In this document: piece after piece, positions 11,634-58,227 of the stretch
How the letters are laid out: each line of letters starts with the position of its first letter
Position numbering within the stretch: the first letter of the stretch is position 1
From: Spirochaetales bacterium
GTDB taxonomy: Bacteria; Spirochaetota; Spirochaetia; Sphaerochaetales; Sphaerochaetaceae
Assembly (NCBI GenBank): GCA_028722305.1
Contig: JAQYHB010000045.1
Location: 62,001-126,000 of the forward strand
Direction of reading: 5' to 3'
Length of the DNA: 64,000 nucleotides
Made by a program: the position numbers and the translations under genes
The notes under the pieces: generated by a model
Told to the model about the DNA's origin: nothing
What the model saw: only the letters and a program-made list of their open reading frames with translations
Databases searched by the model: none

Positions 11634-11852
11634 CCACAAACAGATATACCGAAAATCTTTCCTTGTGGCAAGGCTTCCGCCATGAAAACTGCTTGCCAGC
11701 AATGCATATACCTTTCTCCGGTGCACCAATTTTCACATGAAACAACCATCCCCCACAAATAATTCCAGAAAACAAGGAATAATTACCCGTTTCTTCCATT
11801 GTGCTTTACTAGTCGGGTTCCCTCCATCCCGTGCTTTCATGTCATTTTCACG

Positions 11853-36122: not shown

Positions 36123-36166
36123 ATGTTGCTCCTTCCCGCCCATGGTCGGGCAACATCGCGGGCAAG

Positions 36167-36877: not shown

Positions 36878-36917
36878 GTCGTCCCCCTTGGGGGTAAGTA
36901 TCGCACTCCTTCCCGGA

Positions 36918-36947
36918 CAAAGCAAAGGGGACCGCGATGCGGTCCCC
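36918..36947 (-). terminator. Rho-independent terminator of the transketolase operon
   Basis: Nine-pair stem GGGGACCGC / GCGGTCCCC with a three-base loop followed by TTTGCTTTG on the minus strand, 25 bases after the transketolase stop. Confidence 0.85.
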
Positions 36948-36971
36948 GGGAAACCTTGTCCGATTCCAGGC

Positions 36972-37919
36972 TCAGCGCTTTGCCAGCGACTCGCCCACCT
37001 CGGCGATATGCTCGGGAGTGAACCCGAACGTCTTGGTCAGATAGTCCAGGTTGCCGACCTCGCCGAAGCGCTCGCCGACATTGACGAAGTCCATCTTGAC
37101 CGGGTAGGTCTTGGCCAGGTATCCGGCAATCATCTCGCCTACGCCACCGGCGTAGCGGCCGTTCTCGCAGACCAGGACGTGTCCGGTCCGCTTGGCCACC
37201 TTGTCGATCAGGTCCGTATCCAGCGGGCGGATTGTGTGCAGGTCGACCAAGGTCGCCTTGATTCCCTTTTGGGCGAGCAGCTCGACCGCCTTGGTCGCTG
37301 CGTCCACCATCACCTGGCCGGTCGCGACAATCGCCAAGTCGCCGCCATCGGCAAGCTCGATGCCCTTGCCCAGCTCGATCTTGGTGCCGAGCGGATAGCG
37401 ATGGGCGATGGTCTTGCGCGGGAAGCGGGTATAGCTGGCCTTTCCGCTGTCATAAACCTGCAGGGTCAGCTCGTACAGGCTCTGCGCGTCGCTGGGCTCG
37501 ATCACGATCATGCCCGGAATCTGGCGCATCAGGGCGATGTCCTCGAACGGCATATGGGTGCCGCCGTTGTAGGTAGCGTTGACGCCGGGGTCGGAGCCGA
37601 GCAGGTGCACGCACCGTTTGGCGTAACCAACGCTGAGGAAGGCCTGGTCATACGCCCTGCGGCTGGCGAAAACGCCAAAGCTGTGGGCGAACGGAGTCAG
37701 GCCGGCCGAGGAAAGGCCCGCAGCGACAGCGACCATGTTGCCCTCGGCGATACCGCAGTTGTAGAAGCGGTCCGGATAGAGCTTCTGGAAGGATCCGGCC
37801 CCGATGCAGGAAGAAAGGTCTGCATCAAGGTAGACGACATCCTCATGGATGGCGGCCAAGTCGTTGATCGCCGCCATCATCACGTCTCTCATGAATTTGA
37901 AATCTTTGGTGTCCCTCAT
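36972..37919 (-). CDS. Transketolase, C-terminal subunit
   Basis: 315 residues: the pyrimidine-binding domain (VYLDADLSSCIGAG; NCGIAEGNMVAVAAGLSSAG with the catalytic Glu) and the C-terminal domain (LVDLHTIRPLDTDLIDKVA; CENGRYAGGVGEMIAGYL). With the N-terminal subunit it makes a split transketolase that moves two-carbon units between sugar phosphates. Its ATG overlaps the stop of the N-terminal gene (ATGA). Confidence 0.93.
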   Translation of the reverse strand: MRDTKDFKFMRDVMMAAINDLAAIHEDVVYLDADLSSCIGAGSFQKLYPDRFYNCGIAEGNMVAVAAGLSSAGLTPFAHSFGVFASRRAYDQAFLSVGYAKRCVHLLGSDPGVNATYNGGTHMPFEDIALMRQIPGMIVIEPSDAQSLYELTLQVYDSGKASYTRFPRKTIAHRYPLGTKIELGKGIELADGGDLAIVATGQVMVDAATKAVELLAQKGIKATLVDLHTIRPLDTDLIDKVAKRTGHVLVCENGRYAGGVGEMIAGYLAKTYPVKMDFVNVGERFGEVGNLDYLTKTFGFTPEHIAEVGESLAKR

Positions 37920-38755
37920 GCCTGCACCCCCTCGCGCTCGTACAGTTCCTTGACGGCTTCCTTCGCCTGCTCAAGGTTGAATGCCATGCTGTGGTTCTTC
38001 TCGGTCTTCTCACCCGGGATGAACCCATGGGATTTCTGCGTGTCCATGATGATCATGTGGGGCCTTCCCGGAGTTCTTTTGGCTCTCTGCACGGCGTCAT
38101 CAATCATTTCGAAGTTGTGGCCGCAGATTCTCTGCACGTGCCATCCGAAACCCTGCCATCGGGTCTCGATTCCATCCATGCAGATGATGTCCTCGGTCCT
38201 GCCGTCCAGCTGCAGGCGGTTGAAATCGGTAAAGGCGATCAGGTTGTCCAGCTTCCACATGGCGGCCGTCTCGGCGGCCTCCCAGATCTCTCCCTCCTGG
38301 CTCTCGCCGTCGCCGATGACGGCGAACGTGCGGCTCTGGTCGAAATGGCGGATCTTCTGGCCGAGCGCGATGCCCACGGCGGCGCTGAAGCCCTGTCCGA
38401 GCGACCCGCCGGTGAAATCAACGCCCGGAGTCTTGGTCATATCGCAGTGGCTGGGAAGCTTGGTGCCGCCTTGGTTGAGCGTCATCAGCATCTCGACGGG
38501 GAAGTATCCCTTGCTGGCCAGGGTGGCATAGACCGCCGGACCGGCGTGGCCCTTGGAGCAGACGAAGCGGTCGCGGTCCTCCTTCTGGGGATTCTTCGGG
38601 TCGATGCGCATCTCATGATAGTACAGATAGGTCAGCATCTCGACGATCGACATGCTCCCTCCGATATGTCCGGAACCGAAATTCCCAATCTCCTCGATTG
38701 TCAGTTTCCGGATCTCCAACGCTTTCAGTTTCAAGGTCTGGAGATCTTCCAGCAT
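37916..38755 (-). CDS. Transketolase, N-terminal thiamine-diphosphate-binding subunit
   Basis: 279 residues. GHIGGSMSIVEMLTYLYYHEM, GSLGQGFSAAVGIALGQK and the ThDP motif GDGESQEGEIWEAAETAA ending in DFNR are clear. GGGAGG precedes the ATG. Encoded 13 bases after the class II aldolase gene, so the aldolase and split transketolase form one operon, probably for a pentose or a short sugar phosphate. Confidence 0.94.
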   Translation of the reverse strand: MLEDLQTLKLKALEIRKLTIEEIGNFGSGHIGGSMSIVEMLTYLYYHEMRIDPKNPQKEDRDRFVCSKGHAGPAVYATLASKGYFPVEMLMTLNQGGTKLPSHCDMTKTPGVDFTGGSLGQGFSAAVGIALGQKIRHFDQSRTFAVIGDGESQEGEIWEAAETAAMWKLDNLIAFTDFNRLQLDGRTEDIICMDGIETRWQGFGWHVQRICGHNFEMIDDAVQRAKRTPGRPHMIIMDTQKSHGFIPGEKTEKNHSMAFNLEQAKEAVKELYEREGVQA

Positions 38756-38768
38756 ACGTTGTTCCTCC

Positions 38769-39404
38769 CTATGTTCTCAGGGCATCGCGCTGGGCCTGGT
38801 CCAGGTCCCGTACCGCAATTCCCTTCTGTGTTGCTTGCCATGCGATGACCGTCATCTGGCAGCACCTCTCGAGCACATCGATTTTCTCGAAGGCCTCAAG
38901 CAGGCTTCTGCCCAAGCAGGTCACGCCATGATTCTCCATCACCAGCACATCGGAACGCAAGGACTTTTCCGCCACTTTTCGCGCCAGCTCCTCCGTCCCC
39001 ATCTTCGCGTACGGCACGACGGCGACCTCGCCCAGCTGCCACCATGCCTCGGCGGTCAGGCGGGTATCGACCGGGCAGCCGGCCAAAGCGCTGAAGGCGG
39101 AGGCATACAGCGGATGGGCGTGCACGATGGCCTGCACATCCATCCTGGCCAGATAGACCAGACGGTGCATCCCGGTCTCGATGGAAAGCTTCAACGAGGA
39201 AAGATTCCTCCCTTCCATCGTCACCTGGGCGATCTGGTCACCCGAAAGCGAACTCTTGTCCAGCCCGCTTGGGGTAATCAGAAAGCTGTTCCCGTCCACC
39301 CGTACGCTGACATTTCCACCCAAGCTGGTGGTCAGGCCACGCCGATACAGACGCGCCATTGTCTCAGCCACGCTTGAGCGCGCTTGTGCCAATGCATCTT
39401 CCAT
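38769..39404 (-). CDS. Class II aldolase/adducin family protein
   Basis: 211 residues. The family blocks TSLGGNVSVRVDGNSFLITPSG, the zinc ligands in VHAHPLYASAFSAL and the ENHGVTCLG segment are present. Relatives are L-fuculose-1-phosphate aldolase and L-ribulose-5-phosphate 4-epimerase; which reaction is catalysed cannot be told. The ATG at 39404 lies seven bases after an extended -10 (TGG-TATACT) with no Shine-Dalgarno sequence. The partner split transketolase suggests the product enters pentose phosphate metabolism. Confidence 0.88.
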   Translation of the reverse strand: MEDALAQARSSVAETMARLYRRGLTTSLGGNVSVRVDGNSFLITPSGLDKSSLSGDQIAQVTMEGRNLSSLKLSIETGMHRLVYLARMDVQAIVHAHPLYASAFSALAGCPVDTRLTAEAWWQLGEVAVVPYAKMGTEELARKVAEKSLRSDVLVMENHGVTCLGRSLLEAFEKIDVLERCCQMTVIAWQATQKGIAVRDLDQAQRDALRT

Positions 39405-39417: not shown

Positions 39418-39624
39418 CCATGAACTGCCTCTCCCATGCGATGCTTCACATCTTTATGGAAGAAGGTTTCGTGCAGTCGTGGCGGTTACCCCTTTCGGAC
39501 CGTCCGTACCGGCACGGGCTGGTTCACACAGCCGCTGTCCCGGGTATCAGCCGGTTACCTTTCTTGCACAGGTACAGGTCCCCGTATCTGACCACCTACA
39601 TCAGGAACCAGTGACGACATGCAT

Positions 39625-39659
39625 CCACACCCATGCGGCCTACGGCCCTATGGATGTGG
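39625..39659. other. Long imperfect hairpin in the intergenic region before proS
   Basis: CCACA-c-CCAT-gc-GGCC pairs with GGCC-ct-ATGG-a-TGTGG around a TAC loop (13 pairs, two internal mismatched bulges). Shorter hairpins occur nearby (GGCTG-N7-CAGCC near 39520-39535). No T-run, tRNA-like cloverleaf or known riboswitch core is evident in 39421-39740. A structured RNA or leader is possible. Confidence 0.45.
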
Positions 39660-39764
39660 TACTCTGCTGATTGTGATAGAGAACTGTGAACGTGTATCGT
39701 AAGGGAATCTTTTCCCAAACGAGACAAATCGCTACAATGTCCATGGTTCTAAGGAGAGGCAATC

Positions 39765-41537
39765 ATGCGAATGTCCAAACTGTTTTCCAAGACCCTTCGC
39801 GAGGCACCCAGCGGCGCAGACTCCAAGGGATATGAGTATCTTCTGCGGGCGGGTTTCATCAATCAGATGGGAGCCGGGCTCTTCAGCCTGCTTCCTCTCG
39901 GCTTCCGTTCCAACACGAAGATCGAGACGATCATCCGTGAGGAGATGGATGCCATCGGGGCCCAGGAAATGCAGATGCCGGTAGTCAATACCGCGGACAT
40001 CTGGAAGAAGACGGGGCGTTTCTACTCGATTGACAAGGAGATGACCCGCTTCCAGGACCGTGTCGGACGCGACATGGTGCTTGCCATGACCCATGAGGAG
40101 GCTGTCACCGACGCCGCTTTGGACGAGCTCGACTCCTACAAGAAGCTCCCGGTCCTGGTCTACCAGATCCAGACCAAGTGGAGGGACGATCCTCGTCCGC
40201 GAGCGGGTTTGATCCGCGTACGTGAGTTCACCATGCTCGACTCCTACAGTTTCGACAAGGACCAAGAGGGTCTGGACAAGGTCTACGGCGACCACTACAA
40301 GGCCTATTTCCGCATCTACGGTCGTTGTGGGCTCCCCGTCATCGCTGTCGGCGCCGACAGCGGCATGATGGGCGGCAAGATCAGCCACGAGTACATGTAC
40401 CTCTCTCCGATTGGCGAAGACACGATCATCCACTGCGACGAGTGCGGCTACACCGCCAATCGCCAGGTCGCCAAGTTCCAGAAGGAGTACCTGCCCGAGG
40501 AGCCGAAGCCGCTGGAGAAGGTCAAGACTCCCGAGTGCAAGACAATCGAGGAGTTGTGCGCGTTCCTGAAGATTGACGCGAAGAAGACTGCCAAGGCGGT
40601 CTTCATGGTCGGCGCCTTCATCAACGACAAGAACGGACAGGAAGAGGACAAGCTGATCGTCGCAATCATCCGTGGCGACATGGATGTCGAGGAAAGCAAG
40701 CTGCAGAACGCAGTGAAGGCCAACAGCCTGCGCCCCGCCAGGGAAGAGGAAATCCTTGCCGGCGGCATGGTTCCCGGATTCGGCAGCCCAATCGGGGCCA
40801 AGGAAGGCGTCGTCAAGGTCATCGACGACAGCGTCGCCAAGAGCAACAACTTCGTCGCGGGAGCCAACGAGGAAGGCTACCACTTCCTGAACACCAACTA
40901 CGGCCGCGACTATGACGGCATGGTCGCCGACATCGCCAGCGCGCAGGAAGGGTATCTCTGCCCGAAGTGCCATAAGCCGATGCACTCCGACAAGGGTATC
41001 GAGGCTGGCAACATCTTCCAGCTGGGAACCCGCTACTCCGAGGCCATGAATCTGGCCTTCCAGGATGAAAGCGGTCTCCGCAAGCCGGTCATCATGGGCT
41101 CCTACGGCATCGGCGTCGGCCGCCTGCTGGCCTGTCTGGCCGAGGAATACCACGACGACAAGGGCCTGAAGCTCCCCATCACCGTCGCCCCCTACCAGGT
41201 CGAGCTGGTCAGTCTTGTCAAAGATCCGGAAGTCGGCGAGAAGCTCTACGACGAGCTGACCAAGAGCGGCATCGAGGTGCTCTACGACGACCGCAAGGAG
41301 ACGGCGGGAGTCAAGTTCGCTGACGCGGACCTGATCGGCATCCCGGTACGCATCACCATCGGCAACCGCTCCCTGAAGGAGGGTAAGGCCGAAGTCAAGA
41401 CCAGGGACAACCTGGACGAGACGATGATGTTCGACCTGGACAACCTGACCGGCGAGGTCAAGGACCTGGTCGCCAAGATGACCAAGAGGGTCTACGACAA
41501 GATCCAGGACAAAACCTGGATCAAGAACGTGAACTGA
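39765..41537 (+). CDS. proS: Prolyl-tRNA synthetase, bacterial type with editing domain
   Basis: 590 residues, class II. The N-terminus MRMSKLFSKTLREAPSGADS and FINQMGAGLFSLLPLG, motif 2 (YQIQTKWRDDPRPRAGLIRVREF), an insertion editing domain (about 225-400) and motif 3 (GSYGIGVGRLLACLAEEYHDD) are visible, then the anticodon-binding domain. AAGGAGAGGC precedes the ATG, and TACAAT at 39735-39740 is a likely -10 box. A terminator follows. Confidence 0.97.
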   Translation: MRMSKLFSKTLREAPSGADSKGYEYLLRAGFINQMGAGLFSLLPLGFRSNTKIETIIREEMDAIGAQEMQMPVVNTADIWKKTGRFYSIDKEMTRFQDRVGRDMVLAMTHEEAVTDAALDELDSYKKLPVLVYQIQTKWRDDPRPRAGLIRVREFTMLDSYSFDKDQEGLDKVYGDHYKAYFRIYGRCGLPVIAVGADSGMMGGKISHEYMYLSPIGEDTIIHCDECGYTANRQVAKFQKEYLPEEPKPLEKVKTPECKTIEELCAFLKIDAKKTAKAVFMVGAFINDKNGQEEDKLIVAIIRGDMDVEESKLQNAVKANSLRPAREEEILAGGMVPGFGSPIGAKEGVVKVIDDSVAKSNNFVAGANEEGYHFLNTNYGRDYDGMVADIASAQEGYLCPKCHKPMHSDKGIEAGNIFQLGTRYSEAMNLAFQDESGLRKPVIMGSYGIGVGRLLACLAEEYHDDKGLKLPITVAPYQVELVSLVKDPEVGEKLYDELTKSGIEVLYDDRKETAGVKFADADLIGIPVRITIGNRSLKEGKAEVKTRDNLDETMMFDLDNLTGEVKDLVAKMTKRVYDKIQDKTWIKNVN

Positions 41538-41561
41538 CCGAAAAAGATCAGGCATCATACA

Positions 41562-42686: not shown

Positions 42687-44336
42687 TCAAATCACGGTGA
42701 TGCGGCCTTGCGGCTCTGCGTATTCCGCGGTGACCTCGTTTCCGAGCTTCTCAATCACGTAGGTCATCAGCACCTGGTTGTCCAGCATGCCTTCGTTGAT
42801 CAATAGCTCGTCGTTCTGGAACATCGTGAAACCGTCTCCAGCATCCTTGAGCATGTAGTTGTGGCTGGCAAGCTTGTAGGTGGCATCAGGGTCGATCGGC
42901 GTCCACTGCCCGTCCTTCTCCACCACGACGTCCTTGACCCTGCGCGCGCCCTTGACGGCGACGAACATGTTTTTGCCATCCAGCTCGACCGAGGTGGGGA
43001 TGCTGGTGTCGATGGTGTACTTCAAGCCGGAGACCTGCAGGAATCCGCCACACTCTCCGATGGCGTTCTTTCCGTCGCTGGTGTGCTTCTGGGTGGAGCG
43101 GCTCGCCAGCTCCAGAGCATCGAGAATCTGCTGTCCCGTGGCTTTGACCATGGTCAGCGTGTTGCCGTACGGATGGACTTTGATCAGGTCGCCATAGGTG
43201 ATCGGTCCCTTCTTCAGGGGAGCGCGGATACCGCCGCCGTTGACGAAGGCGATATCGGCGTCGGCAACCGTGCGGTAGGCATCGGCGCACAGGTCGCCAA
43301 GGTTGGTCTCGCGGGTGCGGACCAGACGCACGCCGTTCGTATCGGCAATCGTCAGGTCGACATCGGTCTTGCCGATGACCTCGGCAAGGCTTTCCTTGTA
43401 CTTCGCCTCGATCGAGTCGACGAACGCGGCGACATCGGGATCCTTGTCCGGGTACGCCCCAATCAATCCCGTCTCCATCACCCCGTCAGGGCCAATCAGG
43501 AGCATGCCAATATTGGCGAACTTCGTTCCGGTCGAGGAAAGCAGGACCTTCCCGCCGTCCTTCGCGGCGACAACCTCGCAGGGGATGACGCTGTGGGAAT
43601 GGCCGTCAAGCACCACATCGACGCCGGTCGTATTGGCGATCAGGTCGGTGGAACGGAACGGGGCGGAAGACTCGTCAGTACCCAGGTGGGCGAGCAAGAC
43701 GATATACTGGGCACCCTCGGCGCGGGCCTTGTCGACATTCTCCTGGACGACGCCATAAAAGGCCTGAGGGTCGTCACCGTAGAAGTCGTAGACGAACGCA
43801 TCCCCTTCCTTGAAATAGGTCGGAGTGGATTTGGCGATGCTCTCCGGGGTTGAGACGCCCACAAAGCCCACCTTGAGGGCGCCATAGGTCGCCACCTCGT
43901 AGGGTTTCACCTTCTCGAGCAAGTTTCCTTTGGTCCCCGTGTACTTGATGTTGCAGGCCAGATACTGGTAATCGGCCTCGCCGATCAGCTGGGAAAGGCG
44001 GTCCATGCCATAGTCGAACTCATGGTTGCCGATGGCGGCATAGTCATATCCGACCTTGTTCATGAGCTCCACAGGGTACTCACCCTTGGAAATGGTCCCC
44101 ATCGCTTCGCCTTGGATGGAGTCCCCATCATCCACCATGACCACATACGGTGTCTTCCTCAACACCTCCTGCTTCAAGGCTACAAGCGACTCGTACCCTA
44201 ACGTGGAACGAATTCCGCAGTGCACGTCATTGGTGTACAGCACCACGACGCTGTTCTGCTTCTCGGTAATCGGTTGCGCGAACAGGGAACCAATAGCGAC
44301 AAGCAGTACCAGCAGCACATTCTTGAATTTTTTCAT
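42687..44336 (-). CDS. Secreted 5'-nucleotidase/UshA-type metallophosphatase
   Basis: 549 residues. The signal peptide MKKFKNVLLVLLVAIGSLFA is followed by the calcineurin-like domain: LYTNDVHCG, DDGDSIQGE, GNHEFDYG, and HLGTDE, GHSH. The C-terminal 5'-nucleotidase domain has FVNGGGIRAPLKKG, KVHPYGNTLTMV and the ASHNYMLKDAGDGFTMF substrate clamp. It dephosphorylates nucleotides or UDP-sugars outside the cytoplasm. GGAGG with six-base spacing supports the ATG at 44336. The start region matches, at 19 of 20 bases, the antisense of the candidate small RNA at 62905. Confidence 0.92.
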   Translation of the reverse strand: MKKFKNVLLVLLVAIGSLFAQPITEKQNSVVVLYTNDVHCGIRSTLGYESLVALKQEVLRKTPYVVMVDDGDSIQGEAMGTISKGEYPVELMNKVGYDYAAIGNHEFDYGMDRLSQLIGEADYQYLACNIKYTGTKGNLLEKVKPYEVATYGALKVGFVGVSTPESIAKSTPTYFKEGDAFVYDFYGDDPQAFYGVVQENVDKARAEGAQYIVLLAHLGTDESSAPFRSTDLIANTTGVDVVLDGHSHSVIPCEVVAAKDGGKVLLSSTGTKFANIGMLLIGPDGVMETGLIGAYPDKDPDVAAFVDSIEAKYKESLAEVIGKTDVDLTIADTNGVRLVRTRETNLGDLCADAYRTVADADIAFVNGGGIRAPLKKGPITYGDLIKVHPYGNTLTMVKATGQQILDALELASRSTQKHTSDGKNAIGECGGFLQVSGLKYTIDTSIPTSVELDGKNMFVAVKGARRVKDVVVEKDGQWTPIDPDATYKLASHNYMLKDAGDGFTMFQNDELLINEGMLDNQVLMTYVIEKLGNEVTAEYAEPQGRITVI

Positions 44337-44413
44337 CAACTACCTCCCTTTGTGGTAATTCTGTTCTCAGAATAACAAGGAAATATCCACGGCACAACAG
44401 GAGAAGCGGATTG

Positions 44414-44818
44414 TTAAACCAATTGATGCTCTTTCACAAACCCGTCGAAAAGCTCGGCGGCAAGCTCGACTGTCTGCAGACAGCGTACCCCGGGGACGAA
44501 GTATTTCGGTTTCAATGCCGAGCAGTCCACCGCTCCTTCCCGCTTGCGGAATGCAGCCACGTATTCCGCGCAGAGCTCCTTGAATCCCGCCGTCTCATGG
44601 GCTTTCGAACCGATGCAGAGTTTCCCCAAGGCGGCAATCGCCGCCGCGAGGGCGCCACATGTGAGGCCACAGCCCATGCCTCCCCCAAAGCCTCCGACAA
44701 GTTTCATTCCCGCTTCGTCAAGGGCAAGGTGGTATTCGTCGTTGATGGCGCGGATCATCGTCTCGGCACAGTTGTAGTTTTTCTCTAGGTAATAGGATCC
44801 AACTCGGTCCTTCAGCAT
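44414..44818 (-). CDS. C_GCAxxG_C_C family redox-type protein
   Basis: 134 residues. The family motif appears as NYNCAETMIRA, then GFGGGMGCGLTCGALAAAIAALG, C in SKAHETAGFKELC, and DCSALKPKYFVPGVRC. These conserved Cys residues suggest a metal or disulphide redox role; the biochemical function is not established. AAGGAG precedes the ATG. It sits after the metallo-hydrolase terminator and before the ushA-type gene, with 75-95 bases on each side. Confidence 0.88.
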   Translation of the reverse strand: MLKDRVGSYYLEKNYNCAETMIRAINDEYHLALDEAGMKLVGGFGGGMGCGLTCGALAAAIAALGKLCIGSKAHETAGFKELCAEYVAAFRKREGAVDCSALKPKYFVPGVRCLQTVELAAELFDGFVKEHQLV

Positions 44819-44862
44819 AACGTTCTCCTTGCCGCAAGTATAACGGAAAGCCCGGATACAAG

Positions 44863-44897
44863 GAAAAGGCCCCTCCGGACGAAGCCGAAGAGGGCCT
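44863..44897 (-). terminator. Rho-independent terminator of the metallo-hydrolase gene
   Basis: Minus strand GGCCCTCTTCGG pairs with CCGGAGGGGCC (imperfect, loop CTTCGT), then TTTTCCTTG; 17 bases past the stop. Confidence 0.85.
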
Positions 44898-44914
44898 GTG
44901 AAAAGAGGATTCGG

Positions 44915-45799
44915 TCAGTTTTGTGCCGGGTCCGCCATCAGTTTCAGCAGTTCGTCCCGCTTGAAGTCCAGGTATTCGCCCCAGAGCTTGTCGTCCAGGA
45001 ATGGGTTGTGGGAGGGATCCTTCCGGAGCTGAGCCATCTTTCCCAGCGTGTCGTTGTTGATGCAGTGGTTGGCAAGGAAAAGCTCCACCCTCTCGTCCCG
45101 CACCTTTCTCAAGGAATCCAGATAGGTCTGGCGCATGGTATGCCTCACGTCGCCGATATCATCCAGATAGGCTTTCTGCAGGGTATTGAATCCGAAACCA
45201 CCGTAGTAGCCGGCACGCTTGACGCCTTCGTTCCCCTTCACGTCGAAGAAGGTGGCGATGACGCCGGCAGTGTGGCCGGGACAAAGGCGGAAAAAGAAAT
45301 CCATTCCCCCGAAAACGATGTGTTCCTTGTCCTCGATCGCGTGGTCGACCGCAAAGAGCTCGTCTGCAAGGTTGCCGGTATCCTGAATCGCCGAGATTTC
45401 CGGACGGCGCTGGAAATCCTCGGCATCCGGCTTTCCCAGATACAGCTTGGTCCCAAACATCCGCCTGAAGAAGAGGGCTCCGCCAATATGGTCCAGGTGC
45501 CCATGGGAAAGGATGATCCATCGCACGTTGGCGGGATTGAAACCCGCCTCCCAAATGGCGTTGACCAGCATTGCCGTGGCGCCGCAGTTGCCGGCATCAA
45601 TCAGCAACAATCCGTTTCCCGTATCAATCAAATGCACACAGACCCAGCTGTCACCCACGTACCAGACGTTCCCGTATATGTGGAACGGATGGACGTAGCG
45701 CCGCTCCTGATTATAAAAATATGTTGGCACCATCGGATTGGAAAGCCAGCGTTTCCGCTCCTTTTCGTACCGGTCATAGGCGATTCTCAGTTCCGACAT
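44915..45799 (-). CDS. MBL-fold metallo-hydrolase
   Basis: 294 residues. LSHGHLDHIGGA is the metal motif; LLLIDAGNCGATAMLVNA and LCPGHTAGVIATFFDV add the other conserved strands and His. Metallo-beta-lactamase-like hydrolase, possibly of the lactone or glyoxalase II type; the substrate is unknown. AGGAGAGGAGG precedes the ATG at 45799, and the frame overlaps the end of the truncated hydrolase gene by 13 bases, so the two were once coupled. Confidence 0.85.
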   Translation of the reverse strand: MSELRIAYDRYEKERKRWLSNPMVPTYFYNQERRYVHPFHIYGNVWYVGDSWVCVHLIDTGNGLLLIDAGNCGATAMLVNAIWEAGFNPANVRWIILSHGHLDHIGGALFFRRMFGTKLYLGKPDAEDFQRRPEISAIQDTGNLADELFAVDHAIEDKEHIVFGGMDFFFRLCPGHTAGVIATFFDVKGNEGVKRAGYYGGFGFNTLQKAYLDDIGDVRHTMRQTYLDSLRKVRDERVELFLANHCINNDTLGKMAQLRKDPSHNPFLDDKLWGEYLDFKRDELLKLMADPAQN

Positions 45800-45983
45800 G
45801 TTTCCTCCTCTCCTTGTCGCAGGTATGTGTTGAAAAATGCCAGGACTGCCCTTCTTGTCCCGTCCTGGACGAACTCCCTCGTGCCATGTCCCGCGCCACG
45901 GACGATATACAGCTCGCTGGGAATTCCCTGCTTCTGGAGCACCTCGTAGAAGAGCTCGCTTTGGGAAAGAGGAACCAGCGGGG
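45787..45983 (-). pseudogene. C-terminal fragment of an alpha/beta hydrolase
   Basis: About 65 residues match the end of an acyl-peptidase/esterase-type alpha/beta hydrolase: LVPLSQSELFYEVLQKQGIP, then IVRGAGHGTREFVQDGTRRA with the catalytic His in GAGHG. The nucleophile Ser and Asp parts are missing. Immediately upstream (higher coordinates) the sequence changes to the antisense of a LysR-type gene, so the 5' part was removed by deletion. Confidence 0.75.
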
Positions 45984-46650
45984 CGAGATCCATATCGCAT
46001 ATACTCCGGAACGAGGTGCGGAACAGTTCGCCAAAACCTACCCGGTCTTTCATGCGAAATATCCCGACGTCACCTTTGTCATCCACGAGGAACGGGTCAA
46101 GGAGATGGAGAAGCACCTGGCCGACGGCACGGTCGATATCGCCCACATCTCCATCCGGCAACCCCAACCGGCCTTCGATTACGAGTGGATCGACAGCGAA
46201 CAGATGGTGCTTGCCGTTCCACGAGGCAACCCGTTGGCAAGGAAAGCCGACGAGGCGAAAGGACCGGGGCTGCCACTGCTCGACCCCGCTTGGCTCGCGG
46301 GAGAGAAAATCGTCTTGAATTCCCAAGAGACGCTGATGCGGGACATGGTGGACGATCTCTACCGGCAGGCAGGGCTCAAGCCGGACGTGCTCTTCGAGAC
46401 ATCATCCAGCAAGACCATCATCAGCGTGGTGGAAAACGGTATCGCCGTCGGCTTCGTACCCCAGTCCTATGTGGTTCCCTCACGGAAGATGGTGTTCTTT
46501 ACCGCCGGCCACCGTTACGAATGGATGCTGACGGTCGCCCACCGAAGGGACTACTATCTCTCCAACGCCGAGCGGGAGTTTATCCGGACCTTCAAGGAAA
46601 TCTACCAGGCCTCCCGCCAGGACCGTCAGTCGGCGACGAGGGTAAGGTAG
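45980..46650 (+). pseudogene. LysR-type regulator lacking its DNA-binding domain
   Basis: About 220 residues starting at RGEIHIAYTPERGAEQFAKT match the LysR substrate-binding domain (VFHAKYPDVTFVIHEERVKE; AVPRGNPLAR; ETSSSKTIISVVENGIAVGFVPQS). The N-terminal winged-helix part and linker are absent; an open frame continues to 45571 but it is antisense to the neighbouring genes and not LysR-like. The end overlaps the convergent secreted-protein gene by 25 bases. The remnant could not bind DNA as a normal LysR protein. Confidence 0.78.
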
Positions 46651-47888
46651 ATCGAGGAACTGTACCAGCCTGCGGTCAGGCTGCTGGCGTCGTCAATGTC
46701 CTCGAAGCTGAAGTCAAGGTCACCCTCCAGCCGGTACAGGGCGAAGTATCCGTTGTTGGATTTTTCCGTCACCGAGCAGGGGACGACAATGTAGTCGGCA
46801 TTGTCGCCCTTGAACACATGGGTCACCTGCGTCGAGGCATAGTCGGCATAGCTGGTGAAGGTGGTCGACGATGCTGCGGCATTCCCCTTGTAGGTTATGA
46901 TGAAGGGAATCGAATTATAGGCGTTCTCGTAGGTCGTCCCCACCTTCCTGAGCTTGAAGACGCTTTCCGCGTTGGTGACCGTGTTGGGCTGGGCCGAGAT
47001 ATAGAGCTTGTAGGGGGTCAGGCTCGTGGCTGCCGGCTTGCTCCGGTAGACCATGTAGTTGGTCGCCTGGATATCGGCGATCTTCACGACGTTGCTCGCC
47101 GTACTTGCGGTGAGGGAAGCGATATCGAGCTGCTTTGCCGCGTCGGTGGCGTTCACAAAGAAGCTGAAATTGGAGCTCTTGTCGGGAGTCTTGCCCCCGA
47201 CGTATCCCCACAGGGTCATGTCGAAGCTCTGTGTCTGGGGGGAGACGGAGGGATCCGTCGTGGTCATGGTGATGTGCAGGTCGCTCCGGTAATCATTGTA
47301 CTCGGCCAGGTCCTCGTCCGTCCCTTCAAGGATGATGATGAAGTCCGCCCAGCGGTCATTCGCCTTGTCAGAGGCACTTCCGTCGCTCGGCTGCAGGACG
47401 AACGAATAGGACTGGCCAGGGTTGGTGGTCACGTAGAACGACGAGGAGGAATTGCCGTACTTGGTGGCATCGCTGGTCATGGTGGTGTCGTTCTTGTTTC
47501 CTCCGCCCCCGCTGATGTTGCGGCGGCCGTTGACGGCGATCTTGTACTTCTTGAACTTGCCGTGGTCGGTCTGGGAGGTGAACTGGAAGTCGCCCGAAAA
47601 GGTGACCGTCGTGGTTCCTGAGACTCCGAGGGCACCGAAGACACCAATCATCGTGTCGTCATAATACCCCATCGAGTCATTGTATGAGGTCCTTCCGTTG
47701 TTCGGGGTCATGGAGCCGACCCATTGCAAGTTGGTGGAGAAGTCGTGGTACTTGTACTCGGGGTCGGTCAGGTCGATACTGCTTGCCGTCTGGGACATGA
47801 ACTCGACCCAGAACTCGTGTTCCGCGAAAAGGGGCGCGAGCAGGAGCCCGGAGAACAGCAACAACAGGGTGGAACATTTGCGGATCAT
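46626..47888 (-). CDS. Secreted beta-rich protein of unknown function, operon member 4
   Basis: 420 residues, largest of four overlapping genes. The signal peptide (MIRKCSTLLLLFSGLLLAPLFA) is followed by a Ser/Thr/Asn-rich sequence with many predicted short beta strands; two similar-sized halves may exist, the second around TPDKSSNFSFFVNATDAA. The tail, SSLTAGWYSSSIYLTLVAD, has the same G-x-Y-x3-I-x-L-T pattern as the other three products. GGAGG at six bases supports 47888; an ATG at 47903 overlaps the previous stop. No family recognised; a surface or periplasmic fibre or adhesin subunit is possible. Confidence 0.75.
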   Translation of the reverse strand: MIRKCSTLLLLFSGLLLAPLFAEHEFWVEFMSQTASSIDLTDPEYKYHDFSTNLQWVGSMTPNNGRTSYNDSMGYYDDTMIGVFGALGVSGTTTVTFSGDFQFTSQTDHGKFKKYKIAVNGRRNISGGGGNKNDTTMTSDATKYGNSSSSFYVTTNPGQSYSFVLQPSDGSASDKANDRWADFIIILEGTDEDLAEYNDYRSDLHITMTTTDPSVSPQTQSFDMTLWGYVGGKTPDKSSNFSFFVNATDAAKQLDIASLTASTASNVVKIADIQATNYMVYRSKPAATSLTPYKLYISAQPNTVTNAESVFKLRKVGTTYENAYNSIPFIITYKGNAAASSTTFTSYADYASTQVTHVFKGDNADYIVVPCSVTEKSNNGYFALYRLEGDLDFSFEDIDDASSLTAGWYSSSIYLTLVAD

Positions 47889-47899
47889 GCGATTCCTCC

Positions 47900-48463
47900 T
47901 CATTCGCCGTTGGTCAGGGTGAACAGGATCGAACCGGTATAATAGCCCGATCCGTACGACGACGCGTCTTTCTGGTACAGGCGGAAATAAATCGGGTTGT
48001 CCGTGTAGGTCATGATCCGATCTGTGCTGCCCAGCGTGTAGACGCCCCCGCTACCGAGATTCCAATCAGCGTCGGAGCCGGTATTGTTGATATAGGCGAT
48101 CTTGGTCGCAGAAGGCGACTCGGCATTTGTCGGATATTGGATGCCGATCTGGTAGGAGATGGCGGACTGGGAGTCCGAACTCTTCACCATCGGCTTGGTG
48201 GTCACCTTGACGTTGACCAGGGCGTTGGTCATCAGCGTCCAGGTACCAATCTGCAGGCCGGCAATTTGGTCCTTCGGCGCAACGTTGCTGTCCGTCAGGT
48301 CGAAGGAGGACGCTGCCTCGGTCCGGCCGATGATCAGTGTCGTCTTCGGGTCAAGAAAGCCATACAGGTCGACACTCTCGTTTCCGTAGACATTGACGGC
48401 ACCCAGGCTCCTGGAGGCCAGGAGCACCATCATCAATACACTTGTGCAAGAAAGGTACTTCAT
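47900..48463 (-). CDS. Secreted beta-rich protein of unknown function, operon member 3
   Basis: 187 residues with signal peptide MKYLSCTSVLMMVLLASRSLGA. The mature part is Asp/Ser/Thr-rich; GTWTLMTNALVNVKVTTKP and NPIYFRLYQKDA look like beta strands. The end, SGYYTGSILFTLTNGE, carries the shared C-terminal pattern; IYFRL resembles IPIYFNRE in member 1. Both ends overlap neighbours in ATGA form. No domain recognised. Confidence 0.72.
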   Translation of the reverse strand: MKYLSCTSVLMMVLLASRSLGAVNVYGNESVDLYGFLDPKTTLIIGRTEAASSFDLTDSNVAPKDQIAGLQIGTWTLMTNALVNVKVTTKPMVKSSDSQSAISYQIGIQYPTNAESPSATKIAYINNTGSDADWNLGSGGVYTLGSTDRIMTYTDNPIYFRLYQKDASSYGSGYYTGSILFTLTNGE

Positions 48464-49173
48464 TTGGTCGCCACACTTAGGATGATCGTTCCGTGGTAGT
48501 TCTGAGCCGGCAGGCCGGTGGTCTGCATGTCGATATCGACCGAGCCTCCCCACTTCCATGTGCAGGAGTCACCGCCTCCTTTCAGCGTGTTGACGGTATA
48601 GTCGAGAGCCCAGACCTTGGTATCCTCCAACGAGGAGAAATCCAGGCTGCCGGATTTGGTCTCTGTGACTGTCTCGCTGACAATCTTTTTCTTGCCAGAC
48701 AAGAAGACGGTGGTGTTGCCATGCACCGAGCGGGAGAGCGTCGCCCCTTTCCGGGTATAGACGGTATCCTCCCGGGTAAACGCAACGGAACCAGGCACGT
48801 AGGTTTCGGCGTCCTCTCCCACCAGCGGGGAGATGGAAAGACTGAAATGCAGATGCAGGGAGGAGTTTTCGGAATTGCCGAGGGTACCTGTAGCTGACCA
48901 GGTCAGCAACGTACCCTTCACCTCGTCCGTGGTACCCAGGTTGGCGATGGAGTAGGAACTCCCGTTGCTTGCCGCCACGCTTCCCTGCCAATAGGCGCCG
49001 AAACTGTCAAGCGCGCTGATCTTCTCGGTGATGTAGCCGGTGAAAGAGAGCGTGTCCGATCCTCGCTTGTTCCTTCCTTCAAGCTCGTAGCTTTGGGTGG
49101 AGACAATGGGGTCGGCACACAAGGGGAATGCGACGGCAATCAGTGCGAGAACGACAGGAAGAAGACGTTTCAT
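48460..49173 (-). CDS. Secreted beta-rich protein of unknown function, operon member 2
   Basis: 237 residues. Signal peptide MKRLLPVVLALIAVAFPLCA precedes a mature protein without Cys clusters until the single CTWKWGG near the end. The C-terminus (AQNYHGTIILSVATK) fits the shared pattern G/N-x-Y-x2-x-I-x-L. ATGA overlaps join it to members 1 and 3. No domain recognised. Confidence 0.72.
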   Translation of the reverse strand: MKRLLPVVLALIAVAFPLCADPIVSTQSYELEGRNKRGSDTLSFTGYITEKISALDSFGAYWQGSVAASNGSSYSIANLGTTDEVKGTLLTWSATGTLGNSENSSLHLHFSLSISPLVGEDAETYVPGSVAFTREDTVYTRKGATLSRSVHGNTTVFLSGKKKIVSETVTETKSGSLDFSSLEDTKVWALDYTVNTLKGGGDSCTWKWGGSVDIDMQTTGLPAQNYHGTIILSVATK

Positions 49174-49709
49174 GTGGCACTCTCCGTAATCTGGACCGTC
49201 GAGACGTAGCTGCCTGCGCGGGCTGCCGAGCTATCTCCTACCCGCACATAGAAGGTACAGACTTGGCTCCCAGACTGCTCCCGGTTGAAATAAATGGGAA
49301 TCGCGTCGCTCTCCTGCCCCATAGGCAACATCGTCGTTGCGTCACCGCGGGAAGTCTTGTAGCCGATGATCAGGGTGTAGTCGATCGAATCGACCACAGT
49401 CCCGTTCTCGCTATCGTACTGTTCGAGCGGGGTATAGGAGAAACGGAAGTCATGCGTCTTGGTCTCGTTCATGAAGGCGACCATATGGGCGACTTCCTGG
49501 GTAGAATTCTTCAGCTCGATTGCCGCTTCGGTGAGCACGGAGGCACCGGAGACATCCATGATTCTCCACTCGGACAGTCCTTCCTGCTGGTAGTTCCAGC
49601 CAAGCGAGATGGCGGTGTTGTCCAATGCCCCTAGTGCCGGCAAAGGCAAGGCAAGCATGATGAGCAATCCCAGACATCGAGCAGAAAACAGGCGCAAACG
49701 TATGCTCAT
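49170..49709 (-). CDS. Secreted beta-rich protein of unknown function, operon member 1
   Basis: 179 residues. A signal peptide (MSIRLRLFSARCLGLLIMLA, cleavage near PALG-A) leads to a beta-rich domain with IPIYFNREQSGSQVCTFYVR and the end AGSYVSTVQITESAT, resembling the final strand of spore-coat-U/pilin-like domains. GGAG with five-base spacing supports the ATG at 49709. First gene of the operon. Confidence 0.75.
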   Translation of the reverse strand: MSIRLRLFSARCLGLLIMLALPLPALGALDNTAISLGWNYQQEGLSEWRIMDVSGASVLTEAAIELKNSTQEVAHMVAFMNETKTHDFRFSYTPLEQYDSENGTVVDSIDYTLIIGYKTSRGDATTMLPMGQESDAIPIYFNREQSGSQVCTFYVRVGDSSAARAGSYVSTVQITESAT

Positions 49710-49957
49710 TCCAACTCCAAACGGGCACTTGCATTTCGTGTCCCAGCTCCAATATAGGGAAAAAGCACACACATTACAAGACATATGTCATAACATTTTA
49801 AAAAATCATGCTTTTTCCGAATAGAGAACACATATCCACCGACAAAGAATACCATGCTAATAACGCAATAAGCGGAATTATATTTCAAAAAAACACGTTT
49901 TCTTCACCGACAAACTTATCTCATATGTTCCAATTTATTCTATCAATAGATATATAT

Positions 49958-49987
49958 TTGGAATTATTCCGAATAATAAAATATACT
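49958..49987 (+). promoter_or_regulatory. Candidate promoter and operator of the GH43 importer operon
   Basis: TTGGAA (49958-49963), 18-base spacer, TATACT (49982-49987). The spacer holds the palindrome ATTATTC-C-GAATAAT, placed where a repressor or AraC-type protein could act. The leader to the ATG at 50205 is about 210 bases; no riboswitch was recognised in it. The rest of 49710-49957 is A+T-rich and must contain the divergent promoter of the secreted operon, not identified. Confidence 0.5.
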
Positions 49988-50204
49988 AAAAGCGTTTATT
50001 TACTCACTATTGACATAAAAAACGCACACAACTCCACCGAGAAATCCCTAGTTGGTGGCGAAAAACGCCCGTTGTCACGAAGCCTCCCGCAAAGCAGAAA
50101 TTGTCATACACAGAAAAAACTGGTTACTTGCCGACATACAAGTCGCGTGATAGAGGAAGACCATTAGCCAAAAGCAATATGATTGGCGACAAAAGGAGTT
50201 GAAA

Positions 50205-51812
50205 ATGAAGAAGTATCGACATCTGGTTCCCCTTGCGCTTTGTGTGACAGCGAGCCTCTTCGCCCAAGGAGGGAAAGAGCAGCAAGTTGTGGCAAAGCCC
50301 CAACCGGCACAAACGGACAGTGGAAAACCTTTCGAGGGTGTGACTCTTTCCTGGTGGACGAAACTGAACGGAAATGTCTCCGTCAATTACACCAACCTTG
50401 GCGATACCCCATGGGCACAGTATGTGGAAGAACAGACAGGAATCCACATCAACTTCATCCATCCCACCCAAGGATCAGAAAAAGAAGAGTTCGCCATCAT
50501 GCTGGCTGATGGCGACTATCCCGACATCATCGAACATACCTGGACCACCTATCCCGGCGGACCTTCTCAAGCCATCAATGACGGCGTTATCCTCAACTTG
50601 GACAATCTCATGAAAAAGAATGCTCCCAACTTCTCCGGCCTTATGGCAGCCCACCCCGATGTGGATAAGATGGTCAAGGATTCCAATGGCGACTACTATT
50701 GCTTCCCGTTCCTGCGCGGTCTGGAAAACCCGAACCTGACGCTCTTCTCCGGTGGCTTGATCGTCCGCAAAGACGTGCTGGACAAGTTGGGGCTTCCCAT
50801 GCCCGAGACCATCGACGATTGGGATATGGTACTTAGAGCGTACAAGGCGAACGGCTTTGCCGTCCCCTTCTGTACTCGTTCGGAATGGATGCTGGACTGC
50901 TGGTCCGGAGGCTTCGACAACTGGGGATATTTCTATGTGGATGACGGTGTCGTCAAGAACGGCATCATCGAAGACTCGCGGAAGGCAATGCTGTCCAAAC
51001 TGCGAGAGTGGTACAAGGATGGCTTGATCGACAACGACTACCTTGTGGCGAACAAGAAGTCCAACCAGACCTATTTCACCACCGGAAAGTCCGCTGCGGT
51101 GAATGCCCCATTCGGGCAGGGTCTGGGAAATTACACGCAAATCATGCATGCCAAAGATCCCTCCATCACTCAGGAGGACATCCGTTGCACGGTGCCGGTC
51201 ACTTCAACGAGGGGCAAAAATGCAAAGTTCTCGAAGATGAACGCCATCTACGACGCATCCGGAGTCTCCGCAGCCATTTCCACCAATTGCAAGAACAGGG
51301 AAGCCGCCGCATATCTGCTTGACTGGATGTACAGCAAAGAAGGCAATCTGGCCTGCAATTTCGGTATTGAAGGCAAGACCTATACAATGGTAGACGGCAA
51401 TCCGGTCTATACCGACTTCGTGTTGCACAACCCGGACGGCAAGACTGCGAGCGAAATCCTGGCAGCCTATTCTCGGGCTTCCACCAGCGGCGTCTGCGTA
51501 CAGGATCCTCGATACATCGAGCAGTACTACGCCCAGGACAACCAGAAAGAAGCCTTGCGGCTCAGCATGAAGACCGACATGGGCAAGCACGCATTTCCTC
51601 CGTGCTCCGTCGATTCAAAGGATGCAGAGCGCTTCAGCGAAATCATGAGCAACGTGGAAACCCTGCAGGATGAGATGGAGGCTCAGTTCATCTCTGGCGC
51701 GGTCGACATCAATACGGAGTGGAACAGTTACCAGAAACAGTTGCGCGCGTTCGGCATCGACGAGGCTATTGGGATGATGCAGAAGGCATACGACAATTAC
51801 ATGGCCCATTGA
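50205..51812 (+). CDS. Extracellular solute-binding protein for an LplABC-type importer
   Basis: 535 residues. The signal sequence MKKYRHLVPLALCVTASLFA is followed by QGGKEQQ, with no lipobox Cys at the cleavage point, unlike the lipoprotein at 5128. VTLSWWTKLNGN, EFAIMLADGDYPDIIE and AAYLLDWMYSKEGNLACNFG are typical of LplA/YtcQ-type binding proteins. AAAAGGAG precedes the ATG at 50205. First gene of the operon; followed by a hairpin terminator, so it is probably the most highly expressed. Confidence 0.9.
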   Translation: MKKYRHLVPLALCVTASLFAQGGKEQQVVAKPQPAQTDSGKPFEGVTLSWWTKLNGNVSVNYTNLGDTPWAQYVEEQTGIHINFIHPTQGSEKEEFAIMLADGDYPDIIEHTWTTYPGGPSQAINDGVILNLDNLMKKNAPNFSGLMAAHPDVDKMVKDSNGDYYCFPFLRGLENPNLTLFSGGLIVRKDVLDKLGLPMPETIDDWDMVLRAYKANGFAVPFCTRSEWMLDCWSGGFDNWGYFYVDDGVVKNGIIEDSRKAMLSKLREWYKDGLIDNDYLVANKKSNQTYFTTGKSAAVNAPFGQGLGNYTQIMHAKDPSITQEDIRCTVPVTSTRGKNAKFSKMNAIYDASGVSAAISTNCKNREAAAYLLDWMYSKEGNLACNFGIEGKTYTMVDGNPVYTDFVLHNPDGKTASEILAAYSRASTSGVCVQDPRYIEQYYAQDNQKEALRLSMKTDMGKHAFPPCSVDSKDAERFSEIMSNVETLQDEMEAQFISGAVDINTEWNSYQKQLRAFGIDEAIGMMQKAYDNYMAH

Positions 51813-51823
51813 CATGAAGAGGA

Positions 51824-51860
51824 AGCGGGCCCTCACGAGGAGAGCCCGCTTTCCTTTTCT
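51824..51860 (+). terminator. Hairpin with T-rich tail between binding-protein and regulator genes
   Basis: AGCGGGC / GCCCGCT stem with a 13-base loop, then TTCCTTTTCT. Placed inside the operon 12 bases past the binding-protein stop, it probably terminates most transcripts and sets a high binding-protein to regulator ratio. Confidence 0.75.
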
Positions 51861-51875
51861 CTCGGAGGAACGAGA

Positions 51876-54011
51876 ATGACTGGTGTAAGCAGACGGAACT
51901 TGATGAGGCAAATGGCACGGTGGAGTCTTTCCTACCTTACCATCTGCAGCATCGCCACGCTTATGATGACAGTCTTCACGTTCCACTTCTCCCGGGTTCT
52001 CCGCCAGAACATCGAGGAAACAAACAACCTCCAACTTGCCGCGGTTCAGGACCGAGCGGACACCTATCTGGAGGATTCCCAGAAATTCGCTGTCACGATG
52101 AATCTCAACCCCATCGTCAGCGACCTACGCAAAGCGAAAGAAGAAGACGACTTTTCCCGCTACCAGCTGTTCCGGTTGGTCAAGGATATCGCAGCTCAGA
52201 ATCTGGCCGGTCAAAGTACCGAGCGGAGGCTACTCTATTTCCCTCGTAACGGTCTGTTTGTCTCTGGCCAAACCTACGGAAGGAGCAACGCGTTTTACGA
52301 TATGGAACTAGAAGGATGGGGAGTAAACCAGCAGGTACTGGAGAAAGAGTTGCGGCCGATGCTGGACGAACGGCAGGGTATCGAAACGCTTCCAGGAGGA
52401 ATAATCGCCATCTGGCAACTCCTGCAAGCCCCGGGACGGGAAAAGGAATCAGCGTATTCACTGATTTTAGCCCCCGAACGAGACATCTTGGGCTATCGTG
52501 GCAACAAGCCCTACGACTTGGTTTTCCTGGTAAACCCTGCACGACAGAAGATTATTGGCGGCACATCGGAGGGACTTGACGCCGACACGCTTCTTTCTGC
52601 AGCGTCTCAGAATCAAACAATTGTTGCCCATGGTTGGCGCCTGATCACCCCCATTCCCTCGCTCATCCCTGGTTGGTCATATGTGGTGGCAAGCAGGAAG
52701 AACCCCTATTTATCTCCACTTCAGCGGCTCTATCTGGTGCTTGCCATCATGTTGGGTATCTATATCTTCACAAGTGTCTACATTATCATCCACGCGCTTT
52801 TGAAAGAAGCCAAGGTCTTCCATCAGACTATTGACGACAGAAATGTCATTGAAGCGCAACAAACCGCCATCCGACGATTCATCCTCAGCCGCCTTCTTAC
52901 CGAAAAGAATTTTGCGGCGGTTACCAGCGCATCAACGCTAGAACATTATGGACTGAACGTCGAGTCCAACACGTTTGTGTTGCTTGGCGTCGCGAGCGGC
53001 AATTCCCTGCAAGACAAGGAATGGGAAGCGCTTCGAACGGAAATCATTGGACTCGCTAAGGAGCAGGGCCTCTCGTATAGCTCGACCCGGGAGGAAGGGC
53101 GGTTGCTCCTTTTGCTCTGGGAATCCTATCCGGAGAGCAGGGACTTGGTGGGCATCGCGCTCGACATCGGCTCGCGTGTCATGGAGAAACACCCTGCCTT
53201 CCTGATAGCGGTCAGTAGCCCACACCAAGGAAAAGAACATATCACATCGGCCTTCAGCGAGGTACGAAGCGTGTTCCCACATGTCACGGGAAAACCGCTC
53301 GCTTGGCAGGACATGAACCTGTTGCCGGAAGAGACTAAGCTTTCCTTTCCAGCCGACAAAGAGCAACGACTGCTCAATTGCCTGAAGAGCGGGGATGCGG
53401 TAGGCGCCATCAACGAAATCAGGGAAATTGTCCAGGAAAACACGAGTAAATCCCTCTCGGATGAATCACAGACCTTTCTTCTTTCCGTCATCGCGAGCGC
53501 AATCTTCCGGGGCATCGACCATATGCATCTCTCCCAGAAAGCCACCCTTTCCTACCAACAAAGGCTCGAAGCAGCGGACCAGTTGCAAAATCTGGAAGGA
53601 GTTGCCCAGGATGCGTGCGACGAACTCTGCCAGATACGGAGTCAAGAAATGGAGAACGAAAGGAACCAAATGTATCTCACCATCAAACGGATGGTGGATA
53701 CCGGGTATCAGGACATCTCGCTCAACGTGAACTCCTTGGCGGAACGGATGGGGGCGAGACCTTCGGAAATATCCAGGTTGTTCAATGAAAGGCATCCCGT
53801 GAAGCTCTACCAATACATCCAGCAGGTCCGTATCGCCCACAGCAAGGCCATGCTCATGAAGGAAGACAAACTTGAGGTGGTCGCCCGGCAATGCGGGTTC
53901 GGCAGCAATCGGACCTTTCTCAGGATTTTCAAACAGTATGAAGGAGTAACCCCGACAACATATCGGGAACTCACAGGAATAAAGGGAGGCTCTCAGAGTG
54001 AGAAAAACTAA
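51876..54011 (+). CDS. AraC-type regulator with membrane-anchored sensor domain (YesS-like)
   Basis: 711 residues. The first membrane helix (about 18-40, YLTICSIATLMMTVFTFHFS) and a second (about 288-308, LYLVLAIMLGIYIFTSVYII) bracket a large extracytoplasmic sensor. After a cytoplasmic linker, the C-terminal 100 residues form an AraC double HTH (DISLNVNSLAERMGARPSEI; LEVVARQCGFGSNRTFLRIF). Such proteins sense an extracellular sugar and control the adjacent importer. GGAGGAACGAG precedes the ATG, and the end overlaps the permease start by 14 bases. Confidence 0.9.
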   Translation: MTGVSRRNLMRQMARWSLSYLTICSIATLMMTVFTFHFSRVLRQNIEETNNLQLAAVQDRADTYLEDSQKFAVTMNLNPIVSDLRKAKEEDDFSRYQLFRLVKDIAAQNLAGQSTERRLLYFPRNGLFVSGQTYGRSNAFYDMELEGWGVNQQVLEKELRPMLDERQGIETLPGGIIAIWQLLQAPGREKESAYSLILAPERDILGYRGNKPYDLVFLVNPARQKIIGGTSEGLDADTLLSAASQNQTIVAHGWRLITPIPSLIPGWSYVVASRKNPYLSPLQRLYLVLAIMLGIYIFTSVYIIIHALLKEAKVFHQTIDDRNVIEAQQTAIRRFILSRLLTEKNFAAVTSASTLEHYGLNVESNTFVLLGVASGNSLQDKEWEALRTEIIGLAKEQGLSYSSTREEGRLLLLLWESYPESRDLVGIALDIGSRVMEKHPAFLIAVSSPHQGKEHITSAFSEVRSVFPHVTGKPLAWQDMNLLPEETKLSFPADKEQRLLNCLKSGDAVGAINEIREIVQENTSKSLSDESQTFLLSVIASAIFRGIDHMHLSQKATLSYQQRLEAADQLQNLEGVAQDACDELCQIRSQEMENERNQMYLTIKRMVDTGYQDISLNVNSLAERMGARPSEISRLFNERHPVKLYQYIQQVRIAHSKAMLMKEDKLEVVARQCGFGSNRTFLRIFKQYEGVTPTTYRELTGIKGGSQSEKN

Positions 54012-54930: not shown

Positions 54931-54944
54931 GGAGGTAGCAAACA

Positions 54945-55832: not shown

Positions 55833-55835
55833 GCT

Positions 55836-58146: not shown

Positions 58147-58152
58147 GGCTCG

Positions 58153-58158
58153 GTTGTA
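58153..58158 (-). promoter_or_regulatory. -10-like box six bases before the HD gene
   Basis: Minus-strand TGG-TACAAC, six bases, ATG. The TG dinucleotide one base upstream fits an extended -10. Start-codon-proximal transcription start predicted. Confidence 0.4.
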
Positions 58159-58215
58159 CCACAATCCGGCTGTTTTTCACGAGTGGGCTTCATGCTTTTT
58201 TTCTGGAAAACCATG

Positions 58216-58221
58216 GATACT
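58216..58221 (+). promoter_or_regulatory. -10-like box six bases before the nitroreductase start
   Basis: GATACT, six bases (GGAACC), ATG at 58228. The GGAA could act as a weak ribosome site if transcription began upstream, so the leaderless reading is uncertain. Confidence 0.3.
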
Positions 58222-58227
58222 GGAACC

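Follow-up and report, generated by a model that had tools for sequence, protein, structure and literature searches.

Carboxylates are the most common cargo of tripartite tricarboxylate transporter (TTT) systems, and it is not uncommon for a regulator gene to lie next to tctCBA, according to the parts of PMC5812351 drawn on here. The closest described arrangement is the Salmonella tctD-tctCBA system treated in the same passages. BD-FAE, after which a second relevant family (PF20434) is named, is a feruloyl and acetyl xylan esterase according to the cited portion of PMC8165983. In the sections of PMC2884548 used here, small-scale genome diversity in E. coli is predicted to arise mainly by illegitimate recombination.

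Here we analyse a site within a 64,000-nucleotide stretch of a Spirochaetales bacterium genome (GCA_028722305.1, contig JAQYHB010000045.1, positions 62,001 to 126,000), hereafter the window, and compare it with its counterpart in a relative of the same genus, uncultured Spirochaetaceae bacterium RUG023 (contig OMYY01000012.1; G002 below). The RUG prefix designates cow-rumen genomes in the text consulted (PMC5830445). The G002 locus shares with the Salmonella system, as far as the cited passages describe it (PMC5812351), the tctC-tctB-tctA order and an oppositely directed regulator gene, but its regulator is of the LysR type rather than TctD, its operon runs on into esterase-like and MBL-fold hydrolases, and the window lacks the transporter. 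Relative to the BD-FAE esterases of the cited portion of PMC8165983, the intact, BD-FAE-like G002 hydrolase matches positions 13-215 of 215 of the family profile, whereas the window retains only a C-terminal tail without the GRSAGG region. The joint itself resembles the bacterial illegitimate-recombination deletions of PMC2884548, in the parts cited, in that the joint lies at a short repeat, the genes to either side of it are truncated and no mobile element was noticed by eye; there is no difference in kind, although here a complete transporter was removed and both flanking genes were beheaded. No description of a LysR/tctCBA/hydrolase/MBL operon was found in the open-licence literature, as searched by titles and abstract openings.

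Results

Two headless genes meet at the junction

On the minus strand, positions 45787 to 45984 encode the last ~63-65 residues of an alpha/beta hydrolase of BD-FAE-like type, identified by a Peptidase_S9 match and by comparison with G002. The 65-residue remnant (45984-45787) matches the end of the Peptidase_S9 profile (158-211 of 213, E 3.7e-5) and is 83% identical to the G002 hydrolase. Only this tail is present in place of a complete alpha/beta hydrolase fold with a Ser-Asp-His triad: the GRSAGG motif (residue 142 in G002) is lost, GDLDPL (239) is cut through and GAGHG (271) is retained. We take GRSAGG and GDLDPL to carry the corresponding triad roles.

On the plus strand, positions 45979 to 46650 hold the effector domain of a LysR-type regulator. 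Its 223 residues (45979-46647, stop at 46648-46650) are free of internal stops and match Pfam LysR_substrate (PF03466) over nearly the whole profile (5-206 of 209, E 1.1e-31); the DNA-binding domain is missing, Pfam HTH_1 giving no match at E <= 0.001. The remnant corresponds to the intact 305-residue G002 protein from residue 90 on, where RGEIHI begins in that protein, and the two are 95% identical in amino acids and 92% identical in nucleotides over 1,024 bp from the junction onward. The position of the G002 stop codon (46627-46629) is read through in the window, adding 7 residues; this could be a sign of decay, and the change could have occurred in the window or in G002.

The initial annotation, which had a minus-strand hydrolase end meeting a plus-strand LysR effector domain at about 45980, is borne out by the Pfam matches of both remnants and by the joint seen in the sequence, and BLAST alignment with G002 places the junction at 45977-45991.

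Two open frames cross the junction, 45571-46650 on the plus strand and 46326-45787 on the minus strand. Both are largely antisense, and G002 has antisense frames of the same kinds over its intact genes (in the reversed G002 locus, L022rc, 1522-2607 on the plus strand over the hydrolase and 6282-5887 on the minus strand over LysR). A LysR fusion protein was accordingly rejected.

An intact counterpart with a direct repeat at both ends

The G002 coordinates in this section refer to L022rc, the G002 locus L022 in reversed orientation. In G002 the LysR gene (5668-6585, plus strand; 305 residues with HTH_1 at residues 4-62 followed by LysR_substrate, Pfam) is divergent from a minus-strand series of tctC (5589-4540), tctB (4534-4013) and tctA (4000-2492), each assigned by its Pfam family, the hydrolase (2508-1588; 306 residues, PF20434 BD-FAE, E 4.1e-52), the MBL-fold hydrolase (1600-716) and a C_GCAxxG gene (661-257), the last two being the counterparts of window genes. 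The three tct genes occupy about 3.1 kb between LysR and the hydrolase; the TTT transporter they encode is absent from the window locus.

The window is unbroken where G002 carries additional DNA: window 44159-45991 aligns with L022rc 2-1792, and window 45977-50058 with L022rc 5933-10014. The 4,155 bp of the G002 locus missing in the window comprise hydrolase residues 1 to ~243 of 306, the whole of tctA, tctB and tctC, the divergent intergenic region and LysR residues 1-89 of 305. Gene order in the flanks is the same in both genomes. That a single internal deletion took both 5' ends, together with the region of the divergent start sites, thus stands as originally proposed. The supposition that regulator and hydrolase formed a divergent pair does not hold in that form: LysR did have a divergent partner, but this was tctC, with tctC-tctB-tctA lying between LysR and the hydrolase. 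The intact LysR-hydrolase-metallo-hydrolase locus to be sought in relatives does exist in G002, where it allows the breakpoints to be located, but with an entire transporter in between.

The junction (45977..45991, no strand) falls within an imperfect 15-bp direct repeat. The left and right copies in G002, exactly at the junction, are identical at 13 of 15 positions, a figure that describes the G002 copies, as the left copy of the window lineage before the event may have differed. Their start-to-start spacing equals the 4,155 bp missing, and the window carries the right copy from its first base onward. The short-repeat deletion scar has an intact counterpart with direct-repeat copies, albeit imperfect ones, at both ends. 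Pairs of 15-mers matching at 13 or more positions are rare, at 9 of 6,180,196 between L022rc 1-2500 and 4501-7000 with overlapping registers counted separately, and a coincidence of breakpoints and repeat is therefore unlikely by chance. The location of the breakpoints in this repeat thus indicates one short-repeat (illegitimate) deletion. Inspection by eye of the joint sequences and of the G002 gene list revealed no mobile element.

Other differences between the window and G002 lie elsewhere. A nitroreductase-like frame (58319-58568, by eye, within 57541-58710) is ~216 bp longer than in G002; ~255 bp at 39422-39675, beside a prolyl-tRNA-synthetase-like gene (by eye), are absent from G002, and no second copy of this segment occurs within the window; and ~7.5 kb at 50059-57583, beginning with a sugar-binding-protein-like gene (by eye), faces ~190 bp in the G002 contig.

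The surviving MBL-fold gene and its neighbours

The MBL-fold hydrolase gene (44915..45799, minus strand; 294 residues, PF00753, E 1.8e-19) is intact, its start being set by comparison with G002 because the frame is open further upstream. A perfect AGGAGG, matching the Shine-Dalgarno sequence, lies upstream of its ATG inside the hydrolase remnant, and the hydrolase stop and the MBL start overlap by 13 bp in the window as in G002, which agrees with the earlier view that the gene is intact and was once coupled to the hydrolase. The best NCBIfam models are those of subclass B3, with a score of 128.1 bits against a cut-off of 240 (NF033105); as this lies far under the cut-off, the gene is not assigned to the subclass B3 metallo-beta-lactamases and is filed as an MBL-fold hydrolase only. 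Its sequence contains an HGHLDH motif. In both species the gene is followed on its 3' side by an intact C_GCAxxG_C_C family gene (in the window 44414..44818, minus strand; 134 residues, PF09719, E 7.4e-20).

Four adjacent minus-strand frames (46626-47903, 47900-48559, 48460-49173 and 49170-49784) are secreted-protein-like and similar in style, by eye; the frame 46626-47903 has no Pfam match at E <= 0.001.

A simple scan, weak as evidence, finds no promoter-like site at window 45500-46700, where 0.5 would be expected by chance. In G002 a promoter-like site (9/12) occurs at L022 6387-6414, between LysR and tctC, directed at tctC and within the segment missing from the window. It is a weak candidate for the lost tctC promoter: the scan of that stretch gives 2 sites against 2.8 expected by chance, and the end of the site overlaps the tctC start codon as annotated, a start that may have been set too early.

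Constraint and age

Between the window's genome (G000) and G002, the LysR remnant (215 codons, no gap) has dS 0.313 and dN 0.020, a dN/dS of 0.065, as compared with 0.068 for the MBL gene, 0.105 for the C_GCAxxG gene and 0.197 for the hydrolase tail (63 codons). A dN/dS value was obtained for 23 open reading frames of the window, of which the 17 retained range from 0.033 to 0.235. The other six (35382-36389, 36774-38531, 38652-39377, 39732-41558, 45837-47621 and 57541-58710), with values above 0.4, were left out because the longest-ORF rule had probably selected a wrong frame; inspection of four of them revealed other frames for those starting at 38652, 39732 and 45837 and a mixed frame for 57541. 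The set further includes 2 saturated rows without a value and 20 without a match.

Because the LysR stump is still strongly constrained, the deletion is probably recent, as judged from the sequence comparison. If each branch carries half of dS, if the ratio before the deletion was 0 to 0.068 and if the stump has evolved neutrally since, a Poisson bound on the stump dates the deletion to the final 9-22% of the branch leading to the window's genome. The less constrained hydrolase tail, a weak age bound, would alone allow 47-62% of the branch. The low ratio of the stump is equally what retained function would give.

Distribution among relatives

The genus sample consists of three species, G000, G001 and G002. 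At this locus G001 matches only the neighbouring gene 42687-44246 (5'-nucleotidase-like, by eye), with no trace of the deleted locus at the thresholds used. A search with the LysR remnant in 41 genomes (its own and 40 relatives) gives matches in 14 at E <= 0.001. Apart from the window itself, the sole close match is G002 (95% identity, E 4.4e-145), the next best having E 2.3e-15.

Among 139 genomes of the family, 7 match the G002 hydrolase at E <= 1e-25; those that look orthologous are confined to G002, a genome of another genus (G043, 70% identity) and the remnant in G000, the other matches being 34-36% identical. The MBL gene is found in 10 of the 139 at E <= 1e-60 and a TctC relative in 61 at E <= 1e-20, with more than 50% identity only in G002, G043 and G109; G000 retains four distant TctC paralogues (27-31% identical). 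In G043 the order is MBL, hydrolase, a second MBL-like gene, tctA, tctB and tctC, and the contig stops just past tctC with no regulator visible. In G109 a tctC-tctB-tctA-MBL2-MBL series adjoins genes of the dihydrodipicolinate-synthase, 3-hydroxyisobutyrate-dehydrogenase and lactate-racemase Pfam families, and no homologue of the G002 hydrolase or LysR occurs in this stretch at E <= 1e-5. Six genomes of genus g7 have the MBL gene, and the stretches retrieved around it, several of them cut short by contig ends, contain no match to tct genes or the hydrolase. A search of 392 genomes of the phylum with the G002 TctA gave no match at E <= 1e-150; at most three candidates per genome were scored, so this empty outcome is uninformative.

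The G109 locus (L060) holds further gene pieces. A 240-residue frame between its two MBL genes (9594-10316) starts tctA-like (71% over 28 residues, 9621-9704) and, by eye, goes on into a segment that resembles the lactate-racemase-like protein encoded at that locus, and a tctC-like piece lies at 11571-11807. A related operon may thus bear the scar of another deletion, independent of the first.

Discussion

Based on the above data, we propose that one recent deletion of ~4.16 kb in the lineage of the window's genome left this scar, a reading to which we assign a probability of roughly 0.88. The ancestral locus would have been a LysR gene divergent from a tctC-tctB-tctA-hydrolase-MBL operon, as is still seen in G002. 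Recombination or replication slippage between the 15-bp near-identical copies, one in the hydrolase gene and one in the LysR gene, would then have taken the 5' part of the hydrolase gene, the complete TTT transporter, the divergent intergenic region and the DNA-binding part of LysR; the length of the repeat is no more than suggestive of a RecA-independent or slippage-type mechanism, which we infer. Both remnants would be non-functional. A pathway for uptake of some carboxylate and for cleavage of an ester or related bond, by the hydrolase and the MBL enzyme, would thereby have been lost, with the MBL gene surviving without its original promoter. The initial annotation was right in kind and incomplete in content.

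The polarity of the event follows from the presence of two broken genes in the window against two full-length ones in G002, and from the similar operons in G043 and G109. The converse, that G002 gained the 4.16-kb segment by insertion and that the window preserves the older state, would be in keeping with the lack of any sign of it in G001, the remaining species of the genus. At its two ends, however, the segment carries the 5' portions of genes that in G002 are both complete and in frame, with proteins that match Pfam domains end to end or nearly so, and G043, in another genus, has a full-length, 70% identical hydrolase in a similar operon; we regard a gain in G002 as extremely improbable. 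An artefact of assembly (a collapse, a mis-join or a minority strain variant, in a species that has the intact locus) is unlikely, if the least improbable of the rival explanations. G000 is a 2.71-Mb draft of 56 contigs with 95.07% completeness, which leaves room for such an error. However, at 15 bp and with imperfect copies (13/15 in G002), the joint repeat is short for an assembly collapse, the usual assembly word lengths exceeding 15 bp, and the window flanks keep the G002 order. The co-assembly in the RUG rumen study used words of 27-87 according to the cited portion of PMC5830445, although the assembly of G000 may differ. Nor was a near copy of the 4.16-kb segment found elsewhere in G000: with 40 of 83 candidate places scored, the search gave four matches, 54-409 bp long and 66-80% identical, which is what paralogous transporters would be expected to give. 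With 40 of 52 candidates scored, the junction region has no match besides itself and a single 31-base stretch (90%).

The remaining alternative accepts the deletion and holds that the outcome is functional, an effector-only LysR protein being expressed under selection as a metabolite-binding or dominant-negative factor. This could account for a stop-free remnant with such a low dN/dS, and an internal TTG at 46234 is preceded by a 5/6 ribosome-site match. Recency accounts equally well for the constraint, however, and the region with the LysR start and its presumed promoter is deleted. None of the in-frame start codons between 45571 and 46207 has a ribosome-site match better than 4/6, the promoter scan across the junction came out empty, if weakly so, and the stop position of G002 is read through, in whichever of the two genomes the change occurred. 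We consider such remodelling very unlikely. With the single recent deletion as the preferred reading, this is ordinary gene loss and a very clean example of it.

The intact operon would import a carboxylate-bearing compound and cleave it through the hydrolase and the MBL-fold enzyme under LysR control, and the corresponding uptake would be lost in the window's genome. Deprived, by this reasoning, of its original operon promoter, the MBL gene in the window would be transcribed from some other promoter or not at all. More tentatively, and in our estimate somewhat on the unlikely side, the operon may represent a pathway, hitherto undescribed, that takes up and cleaves an esterified or otherwise conjugated carboxylate, intact in G002 and partial in two other genera, that was recently lost here while the terminal MBL enzyme was kept for a separate use, as may also hold in the related genus whose examined stretches contain the MBL gene but no tct genes.

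The site is a natural case of transporter-operon loss that can be resolved cleanly, since its breakpoints are exact and the same genus offers an intact counterpart. For annotators, neither a LysR regulator nor a hydrolase should be called here. Lastly, the G002 locus associates a TTT transporter with two hydrolases, one esterase-like and one of the MBL fold.
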